Positions 7,235 to 14,986 of a stretch of DNA of 39,435 bases are shown here, piece by piece. Both the position numbers and the translations under genes were made by a program. The stretch is from Accumulibacter sp. (GTDB lineage Bacteria; Pseudomonadota; Gammaproteobacteria; Burkholderiales; Rhodocyclaceae): NCBI RefSeq assembly GCF_023806625.1, contig NZ_JAMTDX010000014.1, forward strand, positions 1-39,435, in the 5' to 3' direction. Below the pieces are notes generated by a model. The model had not been told where the DNA came from. It was given only the letters and a program-made list of their open reading frames with translations, and searched no databases. Numbering within the stretch: the first letter of the stretch is position 1; each line of letters opens with the position of its first letter.

Positions 7235-8662
7235 TCAGCTGAACGGCGAGGTGGCGAGCATCGGACGCGGAGCGACCGTCGACGGACCCGGAGAACTCGG
7301 CCCGTTCGGCCGGGCGACTAACCTGGCCTCGGTCGGCGCGCTCAGCTTCGCCTTGTGCGGTGGGCGAGGCTGCCAGCCGACGATCAGCAGCAGCGCGATG
7401 AAGCCGAGCACATAGGCGACGGTCACGTGCCACCCGTGGACCAGCCAGCGGCCGGCCGACCGGGCCTCCGGGAACATGTTCGCCAGCGCGACGCCGGCCG
7501 ACGAGCCGAACCAGATCATCGAGCCACCGAAGCCGACTGCGTAGGCGAGCATGCCCCAGTCGTAGCCGCCCTGGGCGAGGGCCAGCGCGGTCAGCGGGAT
7601 GTTGTCGAAGACCGCCGAAACGAAGCCGAGCCCCAGCGCAGTCTGCCATGAAGCCTGCGGGAGCTTCTCGACGGGCATCAGCGACGCACAGAGGACCAGC
7701 GAGAGCAGGAAGACGCTGCCCTTGAGCGCTTCGGGGAGCAGCCGCCACTCCGGCCGACGCACGGGTGCGGCGAGGAGCAGGGCCACCCACACCGCGGCGC
7801 CGAGGAAAGGGAAGCGGTCCGAGGCCGCGGCAAAGAAGACGTTGACCGTCACGTTGGTGGCCACCGCGGCGACCAGGATGAAGCCGACGATCAGCACGCG
7901 CGGCCAGTCGACCGGCTCGTTCCGCCCATCGGGTGCGGCGATCGGCGCGTAGCGGTGCTGCTGCAGCGCGGCGACGATGCCGCTGACCAGCAGTGCGGTT
8001 CCGGCGGCGACGTAGGCATGGGTGACGTCGAGCGGACTCACGCCATCGATCCACATCATCGTCGTCGTCGTATCGCCGACGACGCTGCCCGAGCCGCCGG
8101 CGTTCGACGCGGCGACGATCGCTGCCAGGTAGCCGATGTGGATCCGGTGCCGGAAGACGATGCGCGCGATCGTGCCGCCGATCAGCGCAGCGGCGATGTT
8201 GTCGAGAAAGCTCGACAGCACGAAGATCATCGCCAGCAGCATGAAGCCGCCGAGCCAGCCGGCCGGCAGGTACCGAGGCAGGGCTTCGGGTACCCGGCTG
8301 TCCTCGAAATGACGTGCGAGCAGGGCGAAGCCGAGCAGCAGGCCGAGCAGGTTGCTGAGCATCACCCATTCGTGTTGCAGATGCACGGCGAGTCCGGTGA
8401 GCCCCGGCCCGGCGGCGAACCCGGTGAAGGCGAGCTTGTAAATGCCGATCGTGATCAGCCCGGTCAGCGCGACCTGCAGCGTGTGGTGATGGAACAGGGC
8501 GACGCCGAGCAGCGTCAGCGCGAAGAGGACGAAGTCGACCGGAATCCCGAGCACCTGCGGTCCTTCACCGGCGCTGCCGGTCGCGGCCTCGGCGCTGCCG
8601 GCGGAAAAGATCAGTACCAGCCAGAGTGCTGGTCCGAGGCGATGGGCGAGCTTGCGGAGCAT
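7235..8662 (-). CDS. nhaD: Na+/H+ antiporter, NhaD/ArsB-CitM superfamily
   Basis: A 475-residue inner-membrane protein with about 12-13 hydrophobic segments and a cleavable-looking N-terminal segment (residues 1-26, ending SAEAA). The core motifs are SSFLDNIAAALIGGTIA (about 165-182), the SNAGGSGSVVGDTTTTMMW stretch and, in the second half, SAVFDNIPLTALAL and WFGSSAGVALANMFPEARS. The paired DN-containing re-entrant motifs are those of the NhaD Na+/H+ antiporters and CitMHS relatives. Other substrates in the superfamily (citrate, arsenite) cannot be ruled out, but length and motifs favour NhaD. It precedes a universal stress protein in one operon. Confidence 0.82.
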   Translation of the reverse strand: MLRKLAHRLGPALWLVLIFSAGSAEAATGSAGEGPQVLGIPVDFVLFALTLLGVALFHHHTLQVALTGLITIGIYKLAFTGFAAGPGLTGLAVHLQHEWVMLSNLLGLLLGFALLARHFEDSRVPEALPRYLPAGWLGGFMLLAMIFVLSSFLDNIAAALIGGTIARIVFRHRIHIGYLAAIVAASNAGGSGSVVGDTTTTMMWIDGVSPLDVTHAYVAAGTALLVSGIVAALQQHRYAPIAAPDGRNEPVDWPRVLIVGFILVAAVATNVTVNVFFAAASDRFPFLGAAVWVALLLAAPVRRPEWRLLPEALKGSVFLLSLVLCASLMPVEKLPQASWQTALGLGFVSAVFDNIPLTALALAQGGYDWGMLAYAVGFGGSMIWFGSSAGVALANMFPEARSAGRWLVHGWHVTVAYVLGFIALLLIVGWQPRPPHKAKLSAPTEARLVARPNGPSSPGPSTVAPRPMLATSPFS

Positions 8663-9156: not shown

Positions 9157-10653
9157 TCAGTGCCGCCAGAAGGCCGGCGTCAGAACGACCAGCAGCGTGA
9201 AGATCTCGAGTCGGCCGAGGAGCATCGCCCAGCAGCACACCCAGGTCTGGAAATCGCTGAGCACGGCGTACGTCGTCGTCGGTCCGACGAGGTTGAGCCC
9301 CGGCCCGGTGTTGTTGATACAGGCCACGATCGCCGAGAAGGCAGTGATGGCGTCGAGCCGCGTGGCGATCAGCAGCAGGGTCAGCGAGACGATGCTGACC
9401 ACGTAGATGAACAGGAATCCGAGGATCGCGTGCAGCACGTGGTCGGGCATGACCACGTCACCGAAACGGACGTTGTGCAGGCCGCGCGGGTGCATCGCGC
9501 GCAGCAACTCGCGGAAGACCTGCTTGTAGAGCACGACGGCGCGGATCATCTTGATGCCCCCGCCGGCCGATCCCGAACAGGCGACGAAGCTGCCGAGAAA
9601 GAGAATCCACAGTTGGGCAAAAAGCGGCCACTGCGCGTAGTCGGTGATCGCGAAGCCGAGCGAAGTGGCCAGGGACACCGAGTGGAAGGCGACGTAGCGG
9701 AAGGTGGTCAGGAAGTCGTCGTAGATCCCCTCCGGGAGCAGGTAGATGGTCAGCGCGACGCTGCTCAGCGCGAGGAAGCCGAGGAAATAATGCGCTTCGC
9801 GGTCGGATCGGTATGGACGCAGCGAGCGCTTCGCAAAAGCCAGGAAGTGGGTGCTGAAGTTGATCCCGGCGAGCAGAGCGAAGAAGACGACGACGAGTTC
9901 GATTTCGAGGCTGTCGAAATGGCCGAGGCTGCCGTCCTTGGTCGAAAAGCCGCCGAGGCCCATGATCGAGAAGGCATGCATCAGCGCGTCCCACGCGGGC
10001 ATGCCGGCGTAGTGCAGGGCGAGCGCGCAGGCGATCGTCAGGATCACGTAGACGACCCAGAGGCCCTTGGCCGTCTCGGTGATCCGCGGAGTGACCTTCG
10101 AGTCCTTCATCGGACCCGGCGTTTCAGCCTTGAACATGCCCCGGCCACCAAAGCCGAGTAGCGGCAGGATGGCCACGGCGAGGACGACGACGCCGAGTCC
10201 GCCGACCCAGTGCATGAACGTGCGCCAGAAATTGATCGACAGCGGCAGCTCGTCGAGCCCCGAGAGCACCGTCGCTCCGGTCGCGGTGAGCCCAGAGACG
10301 GCTTCGAAGTAGGCGTCGGTCCACGACAGTCCGGCAATCTGCAGGTACAGCGGTAGCGCACCGAAGGCGGGGAGCAGCGACCAGATCAGCGCGACGAGCA
10401 GAAAGCTCTCGCGCACGCGCATCTCACGCTGGTGTCGGCGAACCGACAGCGAAAGCAGCGCTCCGCAGGTCAGGGTGATCAGGACCGCCTCGTCGTACGC
10501 GCTGTGTGCGCCGTCGTCGGTCAGCCACGAGACGCTCAGCGGGATGAGCATCAGCGCGCCGAAGCCGGCGACGAGGATGCCGAGAATGTACAGGACCGGT
10601 GCAAAACGGCTGATCATCGGTGGTCGGGCGTCAGGGTTGGAGTTTGCCGGCAT
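9157..10653 (-). CDS. trkH: TrkH family potassium uptake protein
   Basis: A 498-residue inner-membrane K+ transporter subunit with the four pore-loop repeats of the Trk/Ktr/HKT superfamily. The filter regions are VSGLTATGATVLSG (about 118-131), FSIMGLGGFST, SLATSLGFAITDY and NNTGPGLNLVG. The conserved ACSGSAGGGIKMIRAVVLYKQ segment before the last pore is also present. The third filter reads TSLG where TTTG is common. TrkH normally works with the cytoplasmic gating protein TrkA, which is not in this window. An internal Met at codon 13 (10617) is an alternative start. Neither start has a strong Shine-Dalgarno. Confidence 0.92.
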   Translation of the reverse strand: MPANSNPDARPPMISRFAPVLYILGILVAGFGALMLIPLSVSWLTDDGAHSAYDEAVLITLTCGALLSLSVRRHQREMRVRESFLLVALIWSLLPAFGALPLYLQIAGLSWTDAYFEAVSGLTATGATVLSGLDELPLSINFWRTFMHWVGGLGVVVLAVAILPLLGFGGRGMFKAETPGPMKDSKVTPRITETAKGLWVVYVILTIACALALHYAGMPAWDALMHAFSIMGLGGFSTKDGSLGHFDSLEIELVVVFFALLAGINFSTHFLAFAKRSLRPYRSDREAHYFLGFLALSSVALTIYLLPEGIYDDFLTTFRYVAFHSVSLATSLGFAITDYAQWPLFAQLWILFLGSFVACSGSAGGGIKMIRAVVLYKQVFRELLRAMHPRGLHNVRFGDVVMPDHVLHAILGFLFIYVVSIVSLTLLLIATRLDAITAFSAIVACINNTGPGLNLVGPTTTYAVLSDFQTWVCCWAMLLGRLEIFTLLVVLTPAFWRH

Positions 10654-11058
10654 CGTCCCGCGCCTGGCGGCCGCTCTCCCGCCCGGCCCGAACCGTGGGC
10701 CGCGGCGACGACCATCGGGTGTCGTCGAGGTGGGGGCGTATGGACTTGCCGGGGATTTGCCGGTAACATATTTTTACATGAACCAGGCAAGTATCGCCGT
10801 TTGCTGCCAGAGGCGTCAATCCGGCCCCCCGCACGACGGAGCGAAGGCGCTCCCACCGGTGTGCGTCCAAGGAGTCGGCAAACTGGACGCTGCCGATCGC
10901 GGTCGGCACGACTCTGGTCGGTCGCCAGGCCGTCGCCGGGCAATCCGGCGTCGGGTGGCGAGGGTCGATGGGTGGGCTCGTGCCCGTTCGAGCGAGGCGT
11001 GGGCGCCAGGGGCGCCAAGCCCGGGAGCGCTCGTCACGGGCTTCAGCCCCGAAGGCGG
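10654..11058. other. divergent intergenic region, trkH / DUF1538
   Basis: About 400 bases between two divergent transport genes. No gene is supported on either strand. It contains a distinctly AT-rich patch at 10764-10786 (TAACATATTTTTACATG), the likeliest place for the trkH and DUF1538 promoters. I could not assign clean -35/-10 pairs. Confidence 0.5.
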
Positions 11059-12567
11059 ATGATGCTCGGCTCGGTCTCCCGTGTCGCGCGCGAACTGCTC
11101 CACGAGGCGTCGCGCGACCTTGCACCGACGCTGATCGTCGTCGCCCTCTTCCAGGCTTTCTTCATCCAGCGCCTGCCCGACAGCCCCGGCGGACTGATCG
11201 GCGGCTTCGCCGTCGTGCTGGTCGGTCTCGCGCTGTTCGTCAAGGGCCTCGACGCGGCGATCTTCCCGGCCGGCGAGACGATGGCTTTCGACTTCGCACG
11301 GCGCGGCTCCTTCGTCTGGCTGATGCTCTTCGCTTTCTGCATCAGCTTCGCTTCGGTCGCCGCCGAACCGGCGCTGATGGCCGTCGCCTACAAGGCCGAG
11401 GTGGTTTCGGGGGGCAGCATGGGCGCGCTGACGCTGCGTCTCGTCGCCGGGCTCGGCGTCGGCCTGGCGGTCGTCGGCGGAGTCTGGCGGATCGTCGCCG
11501 GCGACTCGATCGGCAGCTACCTCGTCCCGGGCTATCTGGTGGTCATCGCGCTGACCTGGTTGGCGCCGCCGCAACTGGTCGGCCTGGCCTTCGATTCGGG
11601 CGGTGTCGTCGCGTCCACGGTCACCGCGCCGCTGCTCACCGCGCTCGGCGTCGGGCTGGCGACGAGCATCCGCGGCCGCAATCCGCTGCTCGACGGCTTC
11701 GGGCTGATCGCCTTCGGTGCCCTGGCGCCGATGGTCATCATCCAGCTCTACGGAATCGTTTTCTTCGAGCCTCCGGCGGCCGGCACGCCGGTGGTCATGA
11801 TGCCCAGCGACGACCAGCATCAGTACGTCGCCGTCGAGATGCTGATCGACTTCCTGATCATGGTCAGGAACCTGCTGCCGATCATCGCGGTCGTGCTGTT
11901 CTCGAGTTTCGTGATCCTCAGACGGCCGCTCGCCGATCCGAAAGGACTGGCGGTGGGCATGGTGCTCGTGGCGGTCGGTCTTTTCCTCTTCGACGAAGGG
12001 TTGCAGGTCGGCCTCTTCCCGCTCGGCGACGAGATGACCAACGGGCTGATGCGCGACGGCGTGGCGATCTGGGCGATCCACCTGTACGGTTTCCTGATCG
12101 GCTTCGCGACGACGATGGCCGAGCCGGCGCTGATCGCCCTGTCGATCAAGGCCGACGAGGTCAGCCTCGGTCAACTCGACGGCTTCTGGCTGCGCTGCCT
12201 GGTGTCGATCGGCGTCGGCATCGGCATCGTCATCGGCTGCGCGCGGATCCTCCACGGTACGAACATCGCCTACTGGCTGATTCCGGGCTACCTGCTCGTG
12301 CTGGCGATGGCCGTCGTCGCTCCGCGCTTCATCGTGCCGATCGCCTTCGACTGCGGGGGGGTGACGACGTCGACGGTGACCGTCCCGCTGGTCACTGCGC
12401 TCGGCGTCGGTCTGGCCGAGCGGACCCCGGGGCGGGACCCGATGATCGACGGCTTCGGGCTGATCGCCTTCGCTTCGCTGCTGCCGATGATCATCGTCAT
12501 GGCCTATGGCATGCTGGCCACCTGGATGCTGCGCACACGAAGAACTGCTGGGGAGGAGGGAGAATGA
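11059..12567 (+). CDS. DUF1538 domain membrane protein, internally duplicated
   Basis: A polytopic membrane protein of about 501 residues made of two DUF1538 repeats in the same orientation. Each half contains an AEPAL motif (about residues 101-105 and 353-357, counted from Met 11062) in the context FA-x3-AEPAL-x4-IKA/YKA. Each half also has a glycine/serine/threonine-rich motif, AFDxGGVxxSTVTxPLxTALGVGLA (from about 176 and 428), followed by DGFGLIAF. Such duplicated glycine-rich membrane loops resemble substrate-binding hairpins of ion transporters, but no substrate is established for the family to my knowledge. Two adjacent ATGs (11059, 11062) are possible; GAAGG at 11051-11055 best suits 11062. 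Its stop overlaps the PII-like gene by ATGA. Confidence 0.88.
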   Translation: MMLGSVSRVARELLHEASRDLAPTLIVVALFQAFFIQRLPDSPGGLIGGFAVVLVGLALFVKGLDAAIFPAGETMAFDFARRGSFVWLMLFAFCISFASVAAEPALMAVAYKAEVVSGGSMGALTLRLVAGLGVGLAVVGGVWRIVAGDSIGSYLVPGYLVVIALTWLAPPQLVGLAFDSGGVVASTVTAPLLTALGVGLATSIRGRNPLLDGFGLIAFGALAPMVIIQLYGIVFFEPPAAGTPVVMMPSDDQHQYVAVEMLIDFLIMVRNLLPIIAVVLFSSFVILRRPLADPKGLAVGMVLVAVGLFLFDEGLQVGLFPLGDEMTNGLMRDGVAIWAIHLYGFLIGFATTMAEPALIALSIKADEVSLGQLDGFWLRCLVSIGVGIGIVIGCARILHGTNIAYWLIPGYLLVLAMAVVAPRFIVPIAFDCGGVTTSTVTVPLVTALGVGLAERTPGRDPMIDGFGLIAFASLLPMIIVMAYGMLATWMLRTRRTAGEEGE

Positions 12568-12911
12568 AGTTTTCGGCGGTAGTGGTCATCGTTCCGGAAG
12601 AAGACGAGAACCGGGCGGTCGAGATCGTCAAGCAGGCCGGGGCGACCGGAATCACCATCCTCAAGAGCAAGGGACTGCGCCACAACGAGCGCAAGACCTT
12701 CCTCGGGCTTGGGCTGGAGCGCAAGGAATCGGTCCTCGTCTGCGTCGTCGAGAAACAGCTGGCGATGCGTATCCTCCGGGCGGTCAAGATCGAGATGAAG
12801 CTCGATCTGCCGGGCGGAGGGCTGGCTTTCTCGCTGCCGGTCGGCAGCGTCGTCGGCATCGGGCTCGAACAGATGGAGGCCTTCCGGCGCGAAGTCGAGG
12901 GGGAACTGTGA
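12564..12911 (+). CDS. PII-like signalling protein
   Basis: A 115-residue protein with the PII/GlnB ferredoxin-like fold: FSAVVVIVPEEDENRAVEIV, AGATGITILKSKGL, then VLVCVVEKQLAMRILRAV and a Gly-rich LDLPGGGLAFSLPVGSVVGI near the C-terminus. In classical PII proteins the stretch after KGxG is a long T-loop with a modified Tyr (YRGAEY). Here it is GLRHNERKTFLGLGLERKES, with no such Tyr, so uridylylation in the GlnD manner is unlikely. PII-like proteins bind nucleotides and regulate a partner, often a membrane transporter. GGAGGAGGG precedes the ATG, and the start overlaps the DUF1538 stop, so the DUF1538 protein is the obvious partner. Confidence 0.85.
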   Translation: MKFSAVVVIVPEEDENRAVEIVKQAGATGITILKSKGLRHNERKTFLGLGLERKESVLVCVVEKQLAMRILRAVKIEMKLDLPGGGLAFSLPVGSVVGIGLEQMEAFRREVEGEL

Positions 12912-13009
12912 GCGGGGGTCCGCGCCCGGACCCGCCGCCGAGACGAGCAGCCGGGTCGACAACCTGGCCGCACGACCGATTGACTGACAGAGTTTGAGGA
13001 TCCATTGCC

Positions 13010-13405
13010 ATGCTGGTTGCCGGAATCATGAAGCGCAAGGTGGTCACGATCAGCCCGCTGGCCACCGTCCGCGAGGCGTTGATGCTGATGAAGGAGCGCG
13101 GCGTCAAGTCGCTGGTCGTCGAGAAGCGTCACGCCGGCGACGCGTACGGGCTGATCGCCTACCGCGACGTCGCCCGGGCGGTGATCGCCGACGATGGCGA
13201 CATCGACCTGCTCAACGTCTACGACATCGCCCAGAAGCCGGCATTGCAGGTCTCGCAACATCTCGAGGTGCGCTATCTGGCTCGCCTGATGATCCAGTAC
13301 TCGGTGAAGAGCGTGTTGGTCATCGACAACAACGAACTGCAGGGCTTCGTGTCGGATACCGACGTCGTCGGCAGCCTGATCGAGCGGGCGATCAGCGGAC
13401 GCTAG
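13010..13405 (+). CDS. tandem CBS domain protein
   Basis: A 131-residue stand-alone CBS pair (Bateman module). CBS1 spans about residues 5-62 (IMKRKVVTISPLATVREALMLM, KSLVVEK, YGLIAYRDV). CBS2 spans about 75-127 (LEVRYLARLMIQYSVKSVLVID, LQGFVSDTDVVGSLI). Such modules usually bind adenosine nucleotides or SAM and gate transporters or enzymes. It lies 98 nt after the PII-like gene in the same direction and 12 nt before the next gene. With PII it gives the DUF1538 protein two potential ligand sensors. Confidence 0.9.
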   Translation: MLVAGIMKRKVVTISPLATVREALMLMKERGVKSLVVEKRHAGDAYGLIAYRDVARAVIADDGDIDLLNVYDIAQKPALQVSQHLEVRYLARLMIQYSVKSVLVIDNNELQGFVSDTDVVGSLIERAISGR

Positions 13406-13417
13406 GAAAGAGTTCGG

Positions 13418-13855
13418 GTGGACAGGATCGTTCGTCGTTATTCGGCGTATTTTCCGCGCTGGTGCCAGGCCTTCGGAGATCACCAGCCGGATCCGGGCGG
13501 CGAGGGCCGGGCCGTCGAGTGGCTCGTCGGTAGCGAGAGCGTCGGCGTGATCCTCCTGCCGGAGGTCCGTCACCGGCTGATGCGCGAACTGCTCGCCGAG
13601 CGCAAGCCCGACATCGAATTCCGGCCGCAATCGATCCGTCTCAACGGCCGCGAGTTCAGCGAGGCGGGCGTGCTCAGACACGCCGGTTATGCAGCGCTGA
13701 GGGAGTTGCTCCTGTCCAGAGAAGAAGTGCACATGTTCCTGAGCTATCACCTGATCTACCCGAGCGGAACGCGGATCCTCACCGCTTCGAGCCGGCCACC
13801 GCTGCCGCTGCTCTACAAGGAGATGGCAGCGCTGCAGATCGCCGTCTACGAGTAA
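13418..13855 (+). CDS. hypothetical protein, last gene of the DUF1538 set
   Basis: A 145-residue soluble protein starting at GTG 13418, 12 nt after the CBS gene. I do not recognise it. The middle has VEWLVGSESVGVILLPEVRH, then a charged stretch (LLAERKPDIEFRPQSIRLNG), then helical segments (AALRELLLSREEVHMFLSYHLIYP). It has no membrane segment or signal peptide. Tight spacing suggests translation from the same mRNA and a role linked to the CBS/PII/DUF1538 proteins. Confidence 0.7.
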   Translation: MDRIVRRYSAYFPRWCQAFGDHQPDPGGEGRAVEWLVGSESVGVILLPEVRHRLMRELLAERKPDIEFRPQSIRLNGREFSEAGVLRHAGYAALRELLLSREEVHMFLSYHLIYPSGTRILTASSRPPLPLLYKEMAALQIAVYE

Positions 13856-13858
13856 ACG

Positions 13859-13876
13859 CCGGCGGGCGATCGCCGG
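13859..13876. terminator. hairpin between convergent genes
   Basis: CCGGCG-GGCGAT-CGCCGG forms a 6-bp GC stem with a 6-nt loop right after the stop at 13855. There is no T-tract, so any terminator role is tentative; its place between converging genes is the main support. Confidence 0.35.
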
Positions 13877-13909
13877 TCCCGGGCAAGGGGAACGGGAAAC
13901 GGTGCGTGG

Positions 13910-14986
13910 TCAGCGCGTCGGCGGTGCTTCCCGTGGCTCGGTGAGCCGCTCGATCATTGCCCGGACGGCGCTGATCTGTCGGCCGTCGCGGGTCGCGTAA
14001 TCCTCACCCGAATAACCCCACCAGTCCCAGCAGGCGAAGGGGTTGCTCAGCCATTTCCAGGAGCCGATCGCTGGTCCGTAGCGCGCCGTCGTCTGCGGGT
14101 AGAGGACGATCAACCGGTTGTGGTCGGCCCAGTTGTTGTAACCGGCGCCGTCGACGAAGCGCCTGCCGATCTGCCCGGCGCTCTGGCGGCAGCCGTGAAA
14201 GACGACATGCACGCGGCAGCTCGCGCTGCGGCAGACGGTCGGGACATAGACGTAGCCGTCGTCAGCGAGGCTGGCGTCGATCGCCTTGCCTTTGACGAAC
14301 GGTCGCTGGTCGAAGGCGATCGTCTCGCCGGTCGGATCGGCGACGCGTGGCTGTAACCGGCCGAGCATCCAGGCGAGCATCTGGCCGGCCGCGTCGAGGT
14401 CGCCGCAGCGGTTGATGTACGGCGCCTGGAGCTGGTCGCAGGCCGTGGCCAGCGGATCGGCGACCGAGATCATCGCGTGTGCGGCGTCGGCGACGTGCAG
14501 CGACTCGATCGATCGGGGTGGCAGCCATTCGGCGTAGAACGCCGCGAGGCGGTCGACGACCTCAGGCGCGACCGTCCGGTCCCTGCCTCCCGAGAGCAGC
14601 CAGACCCGATCGTCGCGCAGGTCGTCGAGCGGGTCGATCCGTCGTCCGCGGGCCAGCGCTTCGGCGTTTGCGCGCAGCTCGGCCACCGTCGGCAGCGGTG
14701 CCCAGGAAGAAGGCGCCATGCAGCTCGTCAGTGCCCGCCAGATCGAGCCACCGGCACAGCCGTAGGGTCCGCCGGCGATGATCCCGGCGCCGGAGACGAG
14801 CCGCGAGTGGGCGACCTGGAACTGGACGGCCAGGTAGGCGCCCGAGGACACGCCCGAGACGGTCAGACCGCGCGGGTCGGCAGCCAGCGCGGGCAGCGCC
14901 GGAGCGGCGCTGGCCAGTCCGTGGCTCAGGCAGAGGGCCGCGAGCACGATGCGCGCGCTCGCCGGACAGCGGTTGGCCGGGCTCAT
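13910..14986 (-). CDS. PHB depolymerase family esterase, exported
   Basis: A 358-residue protein with an N-terminal signal peptide (about 1-28, ending ASAAP). The lipase box is GVSSG at 45-49 with Ser47 as nucleophile. Asp136 (GGRDRTV) and His170 (VADAAHAM) are candidate triad members. HVVFHGCRQS in the second half looks like an oxyanion-hole strand. The N-terminal lipase box and overall layout resemble the periplasmic short-chain-PHB depolymerases of the Rhodospirillum rubrum type rather than secreted enzymes with substrate-binding domains, which are lacking. Likely role: hydrolysis of exported or extracellular 3-hydroxybutyrate oligomers or polymer. It is transcribed towards the DUF1538 gene set and diverges from the aminotransferase. 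Confidence 0.82.
   Translation of the reverse strand: MSPANRCPASARIVLAALCLSHGLASAAPALPALAADPRGLTVSGVSSGAYLAVQFQVAHSRLVSGAGIIAGGPYGCAGGSIWRALTSCMAPSSWAPLPTVAELRANAEALARGRRIDPLDDLRDDRVWLLSGGRDRTVAPEVVDRLAAFYAEWLPPRSIESLHVADAAHAMISVADPLATACDQLQAPYINRCGDLDAAGQMLAWMLGRLQPRVADPTGETIAFDQRPFVKGKAIDASLADDGYVYVPTVCRSASCRVHVVFHGCRQSAGQIGRRFVDGAGYNNWADHNRLIVLYPQTTARYGPAIGSWKWLSNPFACWDWWGYSGEDYATRDGRQISAVRAMIERLTEPREAPPTR

Follow-up and report, generated by a model that had tools for sequence, protein, structure and literature searches.

We describe a four-gene unit of Candidatus Accumulibacter, found in a window (by which we mean the whole stretch of DNA analysed, 39,435 nucleotides of contig NZ_JAMTDX010000014.1), in which a gene for a membrane protein with two fused DUF1538 domains is followed on the plus strand by genes for a PII-like protein, a stand-alone pair of CBS domains and a protein of unnamed family, open reading frame 4 (ORF4), all four being confirmed as open frames. 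The coding unit is conserved, with a PII group and a CBS group that are each distinct, and we think it rather likely that it encodes a regulated cation/proton antiporter, in which a homologue of the antiporter UmpAB is throttled by a docking PII protein while the CBS protein acts as a second sensor. By analogy, the DUF1538-PII-CBS unit is filed here with the PII-regulated transporters, a kind that is already known.

A conserved unit in close relatives and across genera

An earlier note on this DNA, made from the sequence without database searches, had proposed a four-gene unit at 11059..13855 whose DUF1538 and PII genes are coupled by an ATGA overlap, and both proposals stand. The four frames lie at these positions, and the same order, with all four genes matched, is found in 21/21 loci of close relatives (L003-L023; 19 titled Accumulibacter, L003 'Pseudomonadota bacterium' and L014 'Dechloromonas'), the umpAB and PII matches of L022 being partial; given this recurrence, the arrangement is not a matter of chance. 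The overlap lies at 12564-12567 in the window, and the umpAB-PII junction measures -4 in 17 of the close loci and +5 in three, L022 not being measurable because of its broken match. Between PII and CBS the gap is 51-74 bases in the close loci and 98 in the window, and between CBS and ORF4 it is 11-19 bases in the close loci. In a promoter and terminator scan of 10650-13950, the interval from PII to CBS was free of terminator-like sites; three sites were returned on the plus strand, two of them at the start of ORF4 (shuffle mean 1.1, standard deviation 1.2), and on the minus strand a single promoter-like one (shuffle mean 0.4).

The association extends well beyond this genus. In a phylum-wide sample of 398 genomes from 213 genera, DUF1538 occurs in 126 genomes and 43 genera, and in a table of one locus per genus, chosen from the places listed, with the remaining loci of those genera uncounted and one genus (g162) resting on a DUF1538 fragment at a contig end, PII lies directly downstream of DUF1538 in 39/43 genera and is followed by CBS in 27/43. 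The earlier note's idea of an ion transporter that travels with PII, and often with CBS, as one conserved unit is thus borne out; DUF1538 homologues usually found without PII or CBS genes, which it had named as grounds for giving the idea up, are not what this survey shows. Three of the four exceptions to PII adjacency belong to a single family, f71, whose PII-CBS pair lies elsewhere in the genome (L184-L186), and for one of these three the DUF1538 match is a piece at the end of a contig. Five Vibrio loci have the split order umpA-umpB-PII-CBS. A plasmid collection gave nine records with a match, and PII adjoins DUF1538 in 7/7 of those examined (two more, from the same species, were left out): five from Bacillota, with fused DUF1538 and double PII, and two from Alphaproteobacteria, none with a CBS gene at the locus.

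Counted by whole genomes, strong matches to the PII group of this module (E below 1e-25) are present in 105 of the 398, and 100 of these 105 have DUF1538, compared with 26 of the other 293. Of those 26 DUF1538 genomes without a strong PII match, 21 have a weaker one, which adjoins DUF1538 in all three checked (G045, G058 and G208). The genome of the window holds four PF00543 places, from which we estimate that a PII gene would become a neighbour by chance about once in a thousand. Automatic annotation already labels these neighbouring genes. At one locus (L091:496-4714, genome G177), a fused umpAB, PII, CBS, a second PII, umpA and umpB run in one direction, so that what looks like one operon holds two antiporter sets and a single CBS gene.

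Table 1. Features of the four-gene unit and its divergent neighbour, in window coordinates
Feature	Position	Strand	Basis
umpAB-type gene for a 502-residue membrane protein that joins two DUF1538 domains, homologous to UmpA and UmpB	11059..12567	+	ATGATG start (ATG at 11059 or 11062); PF07556 in two stretches
First DUF1538 domain, UmpA-like half	11131..11760	+	E 1.3e-55
Second DUF1538 domain, UmpB-like half	11881..12516	+	E 5.3e-64
ATGA overlap of umpAB stop (TGA) and PII start	12564..12567	+	sequence
PII-like gene, 115 residues, DUF1538-linked PII group	12564..12911	+	PF00543, 28.8 bits; alignment A1; profile against solved PII chains
PII T-loop region, residues 37-55, with KTF(F/L)GL motif at residues 44-49	12672..12728	+	alignment A1
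PII B-loop equivalent PGGGLAF, residues 83-89; hydrophobic at the GlnB/GlnK Lys90 place	12810..12830	+	alignment with GlnB/GlnK-type PIIs
Stand-alone CBS-domain pair, 131 residues	13010..13405	+	PF00571 in two stretches, E 5.2e-18
ORF4, 145 residues, GTG start, unnamed family	13418..13855	+	no Pfam or NCBIfam match
trkH, divergent neighbour outside the unit	9157..10653	-	PF02386, E 3.9e-68

The probable antiporter and its putative sensors

The earlier note knew of no assigned substrate for DUF1538, which is superseded by the description in 2017 of UmpA and UmpB of Halomonas zhaodongensis, paired DUF1538 proteins that form a Na+(Li+,K+)/H+ antiporter (PMC5484666; papers given by PubMed Central number are cited throughout from excerpts). 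There, umpAB is reported to confer salt and alkali tolerance on E. coli KNabc, with exchange optimal at pH 9.0 and K0.5 values of 0.26 mM for Na+, 0.46 mM for Li+ and 0.41 mM for K+ (PMC5484666). The cloned Halomonas fragment is described as carrying a piece of a citrate-transporter gene, a major facilitator superfamily gene, umpA and umpB, and the umpAB subclones as lacking a PII gene (PMC5484666); as transport was present in E. coli, a PII protein of its own is not needed for UmpAB to transport.

The fused protein of the window belongs to the same family, matching PF07556 in two domains with 392.5 bits (E 4.5e-118), far above the gathering score of 22.6 bits. Against the NCBIfam equivalog models it scores 410.9 bits for UmpA (NF041627) and 338.3 bits for UmpB (NF041628), where the cut-offs are 490 and 500, and we therefore call it a homologue of UmpAB and not an equivalog. 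UmpA and UmpB homologues are said to have three Arg, two Asp and one Glu in common (PMC5484666), and the charged residues invariant in ten aligned half-sequences, both halves of the window protein included, are exactly three Arg, two Asp and one Glu; we infer that the positions are the same. In alignment A2 all Vibrio halves fell on the second half of the protein, so that conservation of the N-terminal half there refers to Accumulibacter-type rows only. By analogy with the Halomonas pair, the window protein is probably a single-chain UmpAB, a Na+(Li+,K+)/H+ antiporter. Among the features tabulated for a model that uses genomes to predict optimal growth pH is DUF1538 (PMC13255231). Sequence matches of DUF1538 in the PDB, 14 chains with E of 0.025 and worse, were all antibody chains and were set aside as chance.

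A second, divergent DUF1538 gene with an open frame of 572-623 residues is present in 7/24 genus mates (G001, G009, G011, G015, G017, G022 and G023). G012 has the divergent type only, at a contig start, and in G023, the one case examined, the divergent gene (L244:1360-3949) is followed by a frame of 228 residues with a weak PII match.

The second gene product is a member of the PII superfamily, matching PF00543 with 28.8 bits against a gathering score of 25, and a profile built from alignment A1 finds solved PII chains with a best E of 5.5e-6. Alignment A1 comprises 45 module PIIs; it omits those of L026-L028, the second copies at L111 and L121, and the PIIs of L126-L132 and L143-L145, which are double or divergent, and keeps only four of the Accumulibacter type. 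All 45 sequences share G26, G29, T31, G37, G48 and G98, and G86 is found in 44. The T-loop carries F46 and L49 in 44/45 each, within a motif that is KTF(F/L)GL in most and KTFFGL in the window. In alignment with two PIIs of the GlnB/GlnK type from the window's genome, the group has I, V, L or M at the place of Lys90 and Gly at that of Arg101 (45/45 each), and its T-loop lacks the tyrosine of the uridylylation type. The window PII therefore lacks the Tyr51 T-loop, Lys90 and Arg101/Arg103 pattern, which under this numbering we take to hold the canonical GlnB/GlnK contacts. With the canonical triphosphate-contact positions lost, the protein is atypical and its ligand cannot be assumed, which leaves the energy control by adenine nucleotides that the earlier note suggested as a conjecture. 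In the tree, the PIIs linked to fused UmpAB, that of the window among them, form one clade (97/93, from a bootstrap that had not settled).

The KTFFGL T-loop was considered as a marker of UmpAB docking and rejected in that role, since unlinked PII paralogues keep much of the motif. Paralogues of the same group stand beside SH3_3-domain proteins at L177, L181, L187 and L189, without DUF1538 in the stretch examined; an SH3_3 neighbour was found in 4/10 neighbour proteins scanned, the 'sh3' label of the tree covering 12 loci, and SH3_3-domain proteins may be a further partner for PIIs of this group.

The third product matches PF00571 in two stretches with 65.6 bits, as befits a two-domain CBS protein. 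Among 33 CBS proteins linked to the module PII group, Y69, K74, P75 and G45 are invariant (33/33), and K37 and D42 are found in 31/33 and 32/33, so that on sequence the linked CBS proteins are one orthologous group and not random CBS genes.

Mechanism and competing explanations

In the mechanism that we propose, the fused DUF1538 protein would work as a single-chain UmpAB, moving cytoplasmic Na+ and/or K+ out in exchange for outside H+, as its Halomonas relative suggests. PII, made from the same message, would dock as a trimer on the cytoplasmic face of the antiporter through its conserved hydrophobic T-loop, and would throttle transport under one metabolic state; the CBS protein would pass an adenine-nucleotide-type signal to PII or to the antiporter, and ORF4 would be an accessory added to the operon in the Accumulibacter lineage. 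PII action is more likely to be inhibitory than activating, since Halomonas UmpAB is active in E. coli vesicles in the absence of its PII. A wider claim, that UmpAB-PII-CBS is a widespread and so far unreported kind of antiporter, with a dedicated PII trimer that has lost the canonical contacts, a CBS co-sensor and ORF4 as a third regulator added in one lineage, we hold only tentatively, at somewhat less than an even chance.

Were PII and CBS to gate the antiporter in this way, PII control would be extended to pH and ion homeostasis through a Na+/K+-H+ antiporter tied to metabolic state, in an arrangement that travels across Pseudomonadota, often with CBS, and, as double PII without CBS, in the Bacillota loci examined. 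The polyphosphate cycle of Accumulibacter moves K+, and in this genus the unit could link energy state to cation balance. PII would also give this transporter family, whose one functional study, as far as we found, is PMC5484666, a partner open to direct testing.

Several observations weigh against this proposal. The PII targets known so far are reviewed as acting as trimers (PMC10710835), and UmpAB has been reported as a hetero-dimer; the fused protein falls below the UmpA and UmpB equivalog cut-offs, as do 10/10 other UmpA-type proteins tested; and PII paralogues that do not adjoin DUF1538 keep much of the T-loop motif. CBS is not obligatory, being missing in 16/43 genera and from 7/7 plasmid-collection loci. 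The fourth exception to PII adjacency, g182, has no PII gene in the 1.2 kb left on the contig and only a weak PII match genome-wide, and DUF1538 goes unmatched in five of the 105 genomes where the PII match is strong, G062 (99% complete) among them. Finally, the sample is phylogenetically uneven, a large share coming from family f51, and its genomes are not independent.

The explanation that competes best touches only ORF4, which may be an unrelated hitch-hiker outside the device, a reading to which we give serious weight though we lean the other way. ORF4 has no family in Pfam or NCBIfam at E up to 1, and its best PDB matches (E 0.28 with the single sequence, 0.8 with a profile) were judged to be chance, as were the weak Pfam matches of 22 ORF4 members at E up to 10, which fall to four families with one to four members each and a best E of 0.015. 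The earlier note had remarked that the fourth gene looks new, which holds in that no match to these databases rises above chance, but the gene is a conserved one, with relatives in seven further genera of the sample, so that ORF4 is, on sequence grounds, a new small family. For a tie to the unit, ORF4 and DUF1538 are found together in 22/24 genus mates, the other two (99 and 100% complete) having neither, although a single loss of linked genes may explain this joint absence. A profile search further finds ORF4 in 10/368 other genomes of the class, and DUF1538 is present in 9/10 of these as against 115/358 without ORF4 (one-sided Fisher p 3.3e-4; the G703 match is partial); by genus, it shares a genome with ORF4 in 6/7 (p 0.0088), or 7/7 when another genome of the genus is counted. 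For a hitch-hiker, ORF4 adjoins umpAB in 0/10 of the genomes outside the genus, where its neighbours include NnrS and CitMHS genes, and in G008 a second copy has PhoU and a PhoR-like histidine kinase as its neighbours (L242:4867-8413). G009 (L241:2975-6989) argues both ways, as its native umpAB and CBS survive only in fragments and its ORF4 is whole, yet a split umpA-umpB-PII-CBS set of the Vibrio kind adjoins. Genomes that carry ORF4 thus tend to carry DUF1538 too, without the gene being bound to this operon. Elsewhere in the genus, in G012 (L243:2-662), the native CBS gene is likewise reduced to fragments beside an intact ORF4.

Another explanation, which we consider unlikely but worth keeping in view, is that PII senses a non-adenine signal (an ion, a metal as proposed for CutA and PII-NG, bicarbonate or a cyclic nucleotide) and that CBS alone carries the nucleotide signal. 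The substitutions at the Lys90 and Arg101 places and the missing Tyr51-type T-loop speak for it, whereas the conservation of G26, G29, G37 and G86, which presumably line the cleft, speaks against it. Known relatives point in both directions, since a metal-sensing role is discussed for PII-NG beside a CzcABC antiporter (PMC7726332) but SbtB, likewise a non-canonical PII, binds adenyl nucleotides (PMC8352866, PMC10991534).

A little less probable still is a main substrate of the fused Accumulibacter-type DUF1538 protein that differs from that of Halomonas UmpAB, such as K+/H+ exchange only or another solute. The fused chain with its scores below the NCBIfam cut-offs, the separate clade that the window PII forms with the PIIs of other fused types and the trkH neighbour in the window and 7/21 close loci would suit such a difference, but nine charged or polar positions are invariant in the ten half-sequences, both window halves included, and Halomonas UmpAB itself takes K+ with a K0.5 of 0.41 mM (PMC5484666). 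We think it improbable, lastly, that the operon gives co-expression only and that PII and CBS inform other targets (enzymes or transcription) of the ion or pH status without gating transport, for although f71 keeps its PII-CBS pair apart from umpAB, PII paralogues of the group stand beside other genes and umpAB works in E. coli without a PII gene (PMC5484666), a direct partner fits better with a PII gene that adjoins DUF1538 almost without exception in Pseudomonadota and in the five Bacillota loci, and with the 100/105 co-occurrence, and SbtB and GlnK offer the analogy of PII proteins that bind transporters directly.

Flanking genes and relation to known systems

The earlier note had set the unit between nhaD, trkH and mscL. 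The identities of trkH (PF02386) and mscL (PF01741) are sound, but that of nhaD did not hold: the membrane protein at 7235-8662 on the minus strand scores 63 bits for TIGR00775 against a cut-off of 577 and has no Pfam match at E up to 1; it is a weak relative only, and may be a separate transporter family. Within the flanks covered, which are short in some loci (e.g. L016 and L019), the divergent trkH recurs upstream in 7/21 close loci, and the nhaD-like gene and mscL in 1/21 each; these last two were accordingly dropped as members of the unit.

Among the papers listed from the open literature, five contain DUF1538 and nine the string UmpAB (two of the nine unrelated by title), and none was seen to connect either with PII (subscription papers lay outside the search); the review PMC10710835 is not one of them. 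A search on five PII-like names gave no paper, and nothing relevant came up on potassium antiporters of Accumulibacter; neither PII nor P-II occurs in PMC5484666 or PMC12093952, nor P-II in PMC10030654. The closest relative of the transporter itself is Halomonas UmpAB, which likewise has two DUF1538 halves, with equal counts of conserved charged residues in both, but the window protein is fused into one chain and lies below the equivalog cut-offs, and PII goes unmentioned in PMC5484666.

For the PII partner, the well-studied cases are ammonium, bicarbonate and some ABC transporters, on which PII proteins act (PMC10710835). The T-loops of SbtB and GlnK block SbtA and AmtB respectively (PMC8352866, PMC10710835), although the in vivo role of SbtB is described as unsettled (PMC8352866). 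Like the window unit, SbtA-SbtB unites a secondary transporter and a PII-like protein in one operon, and the SbtB T-loop makes structured, hydrophobic contacts where that of the window PII is conserved and hydrophobic. It differs in that SbtA belongs to the Sbt_1 family and the window PII neighbours DUF1538 instead, in the CGPxGC C-terminal motif of some SbtBs, absent from the window PII, and in the CBS partner, for which the excerpted text of PMC8352866 mentions no counterpart. The genome of the window has, separately, a gene for an SbtA-like transporter (Sbt_1, 390.7 bits) followed immediately by a PII-like gene (L239:400-1788), a pair that lends itself to comparison. AmtB-GlnK is again a pair of transporter and PII, but it serves ammonium transport with a canonical PII, GlnK having Tyr51 and Lys90/Arg101/Arg103, and the GlnB/GlnK-type PIIs of the window's own genome are distinct genes (L237 and L238).

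Two further systems each share one element with the unit. PII-NG is, like the window PII, a PII-type protein whose gene clusters with that of a proton-driven exporter, CzcABC (PMC7726332, citing Sant'Anna 2009), whereas the window PII, compared here by gene neighbours and not by clade, is coupled to DUF1538 and CBS and not to czcABC-type genes. CorB, MgtE and the osmoregulated ABC importer have in common with the unit the use of tandem CBS domains as nucleotide-type sensors of transport (PMC10710835); in those systems the domains sit inside the transporter or its ATPase, while in the window they form a separate small protein.

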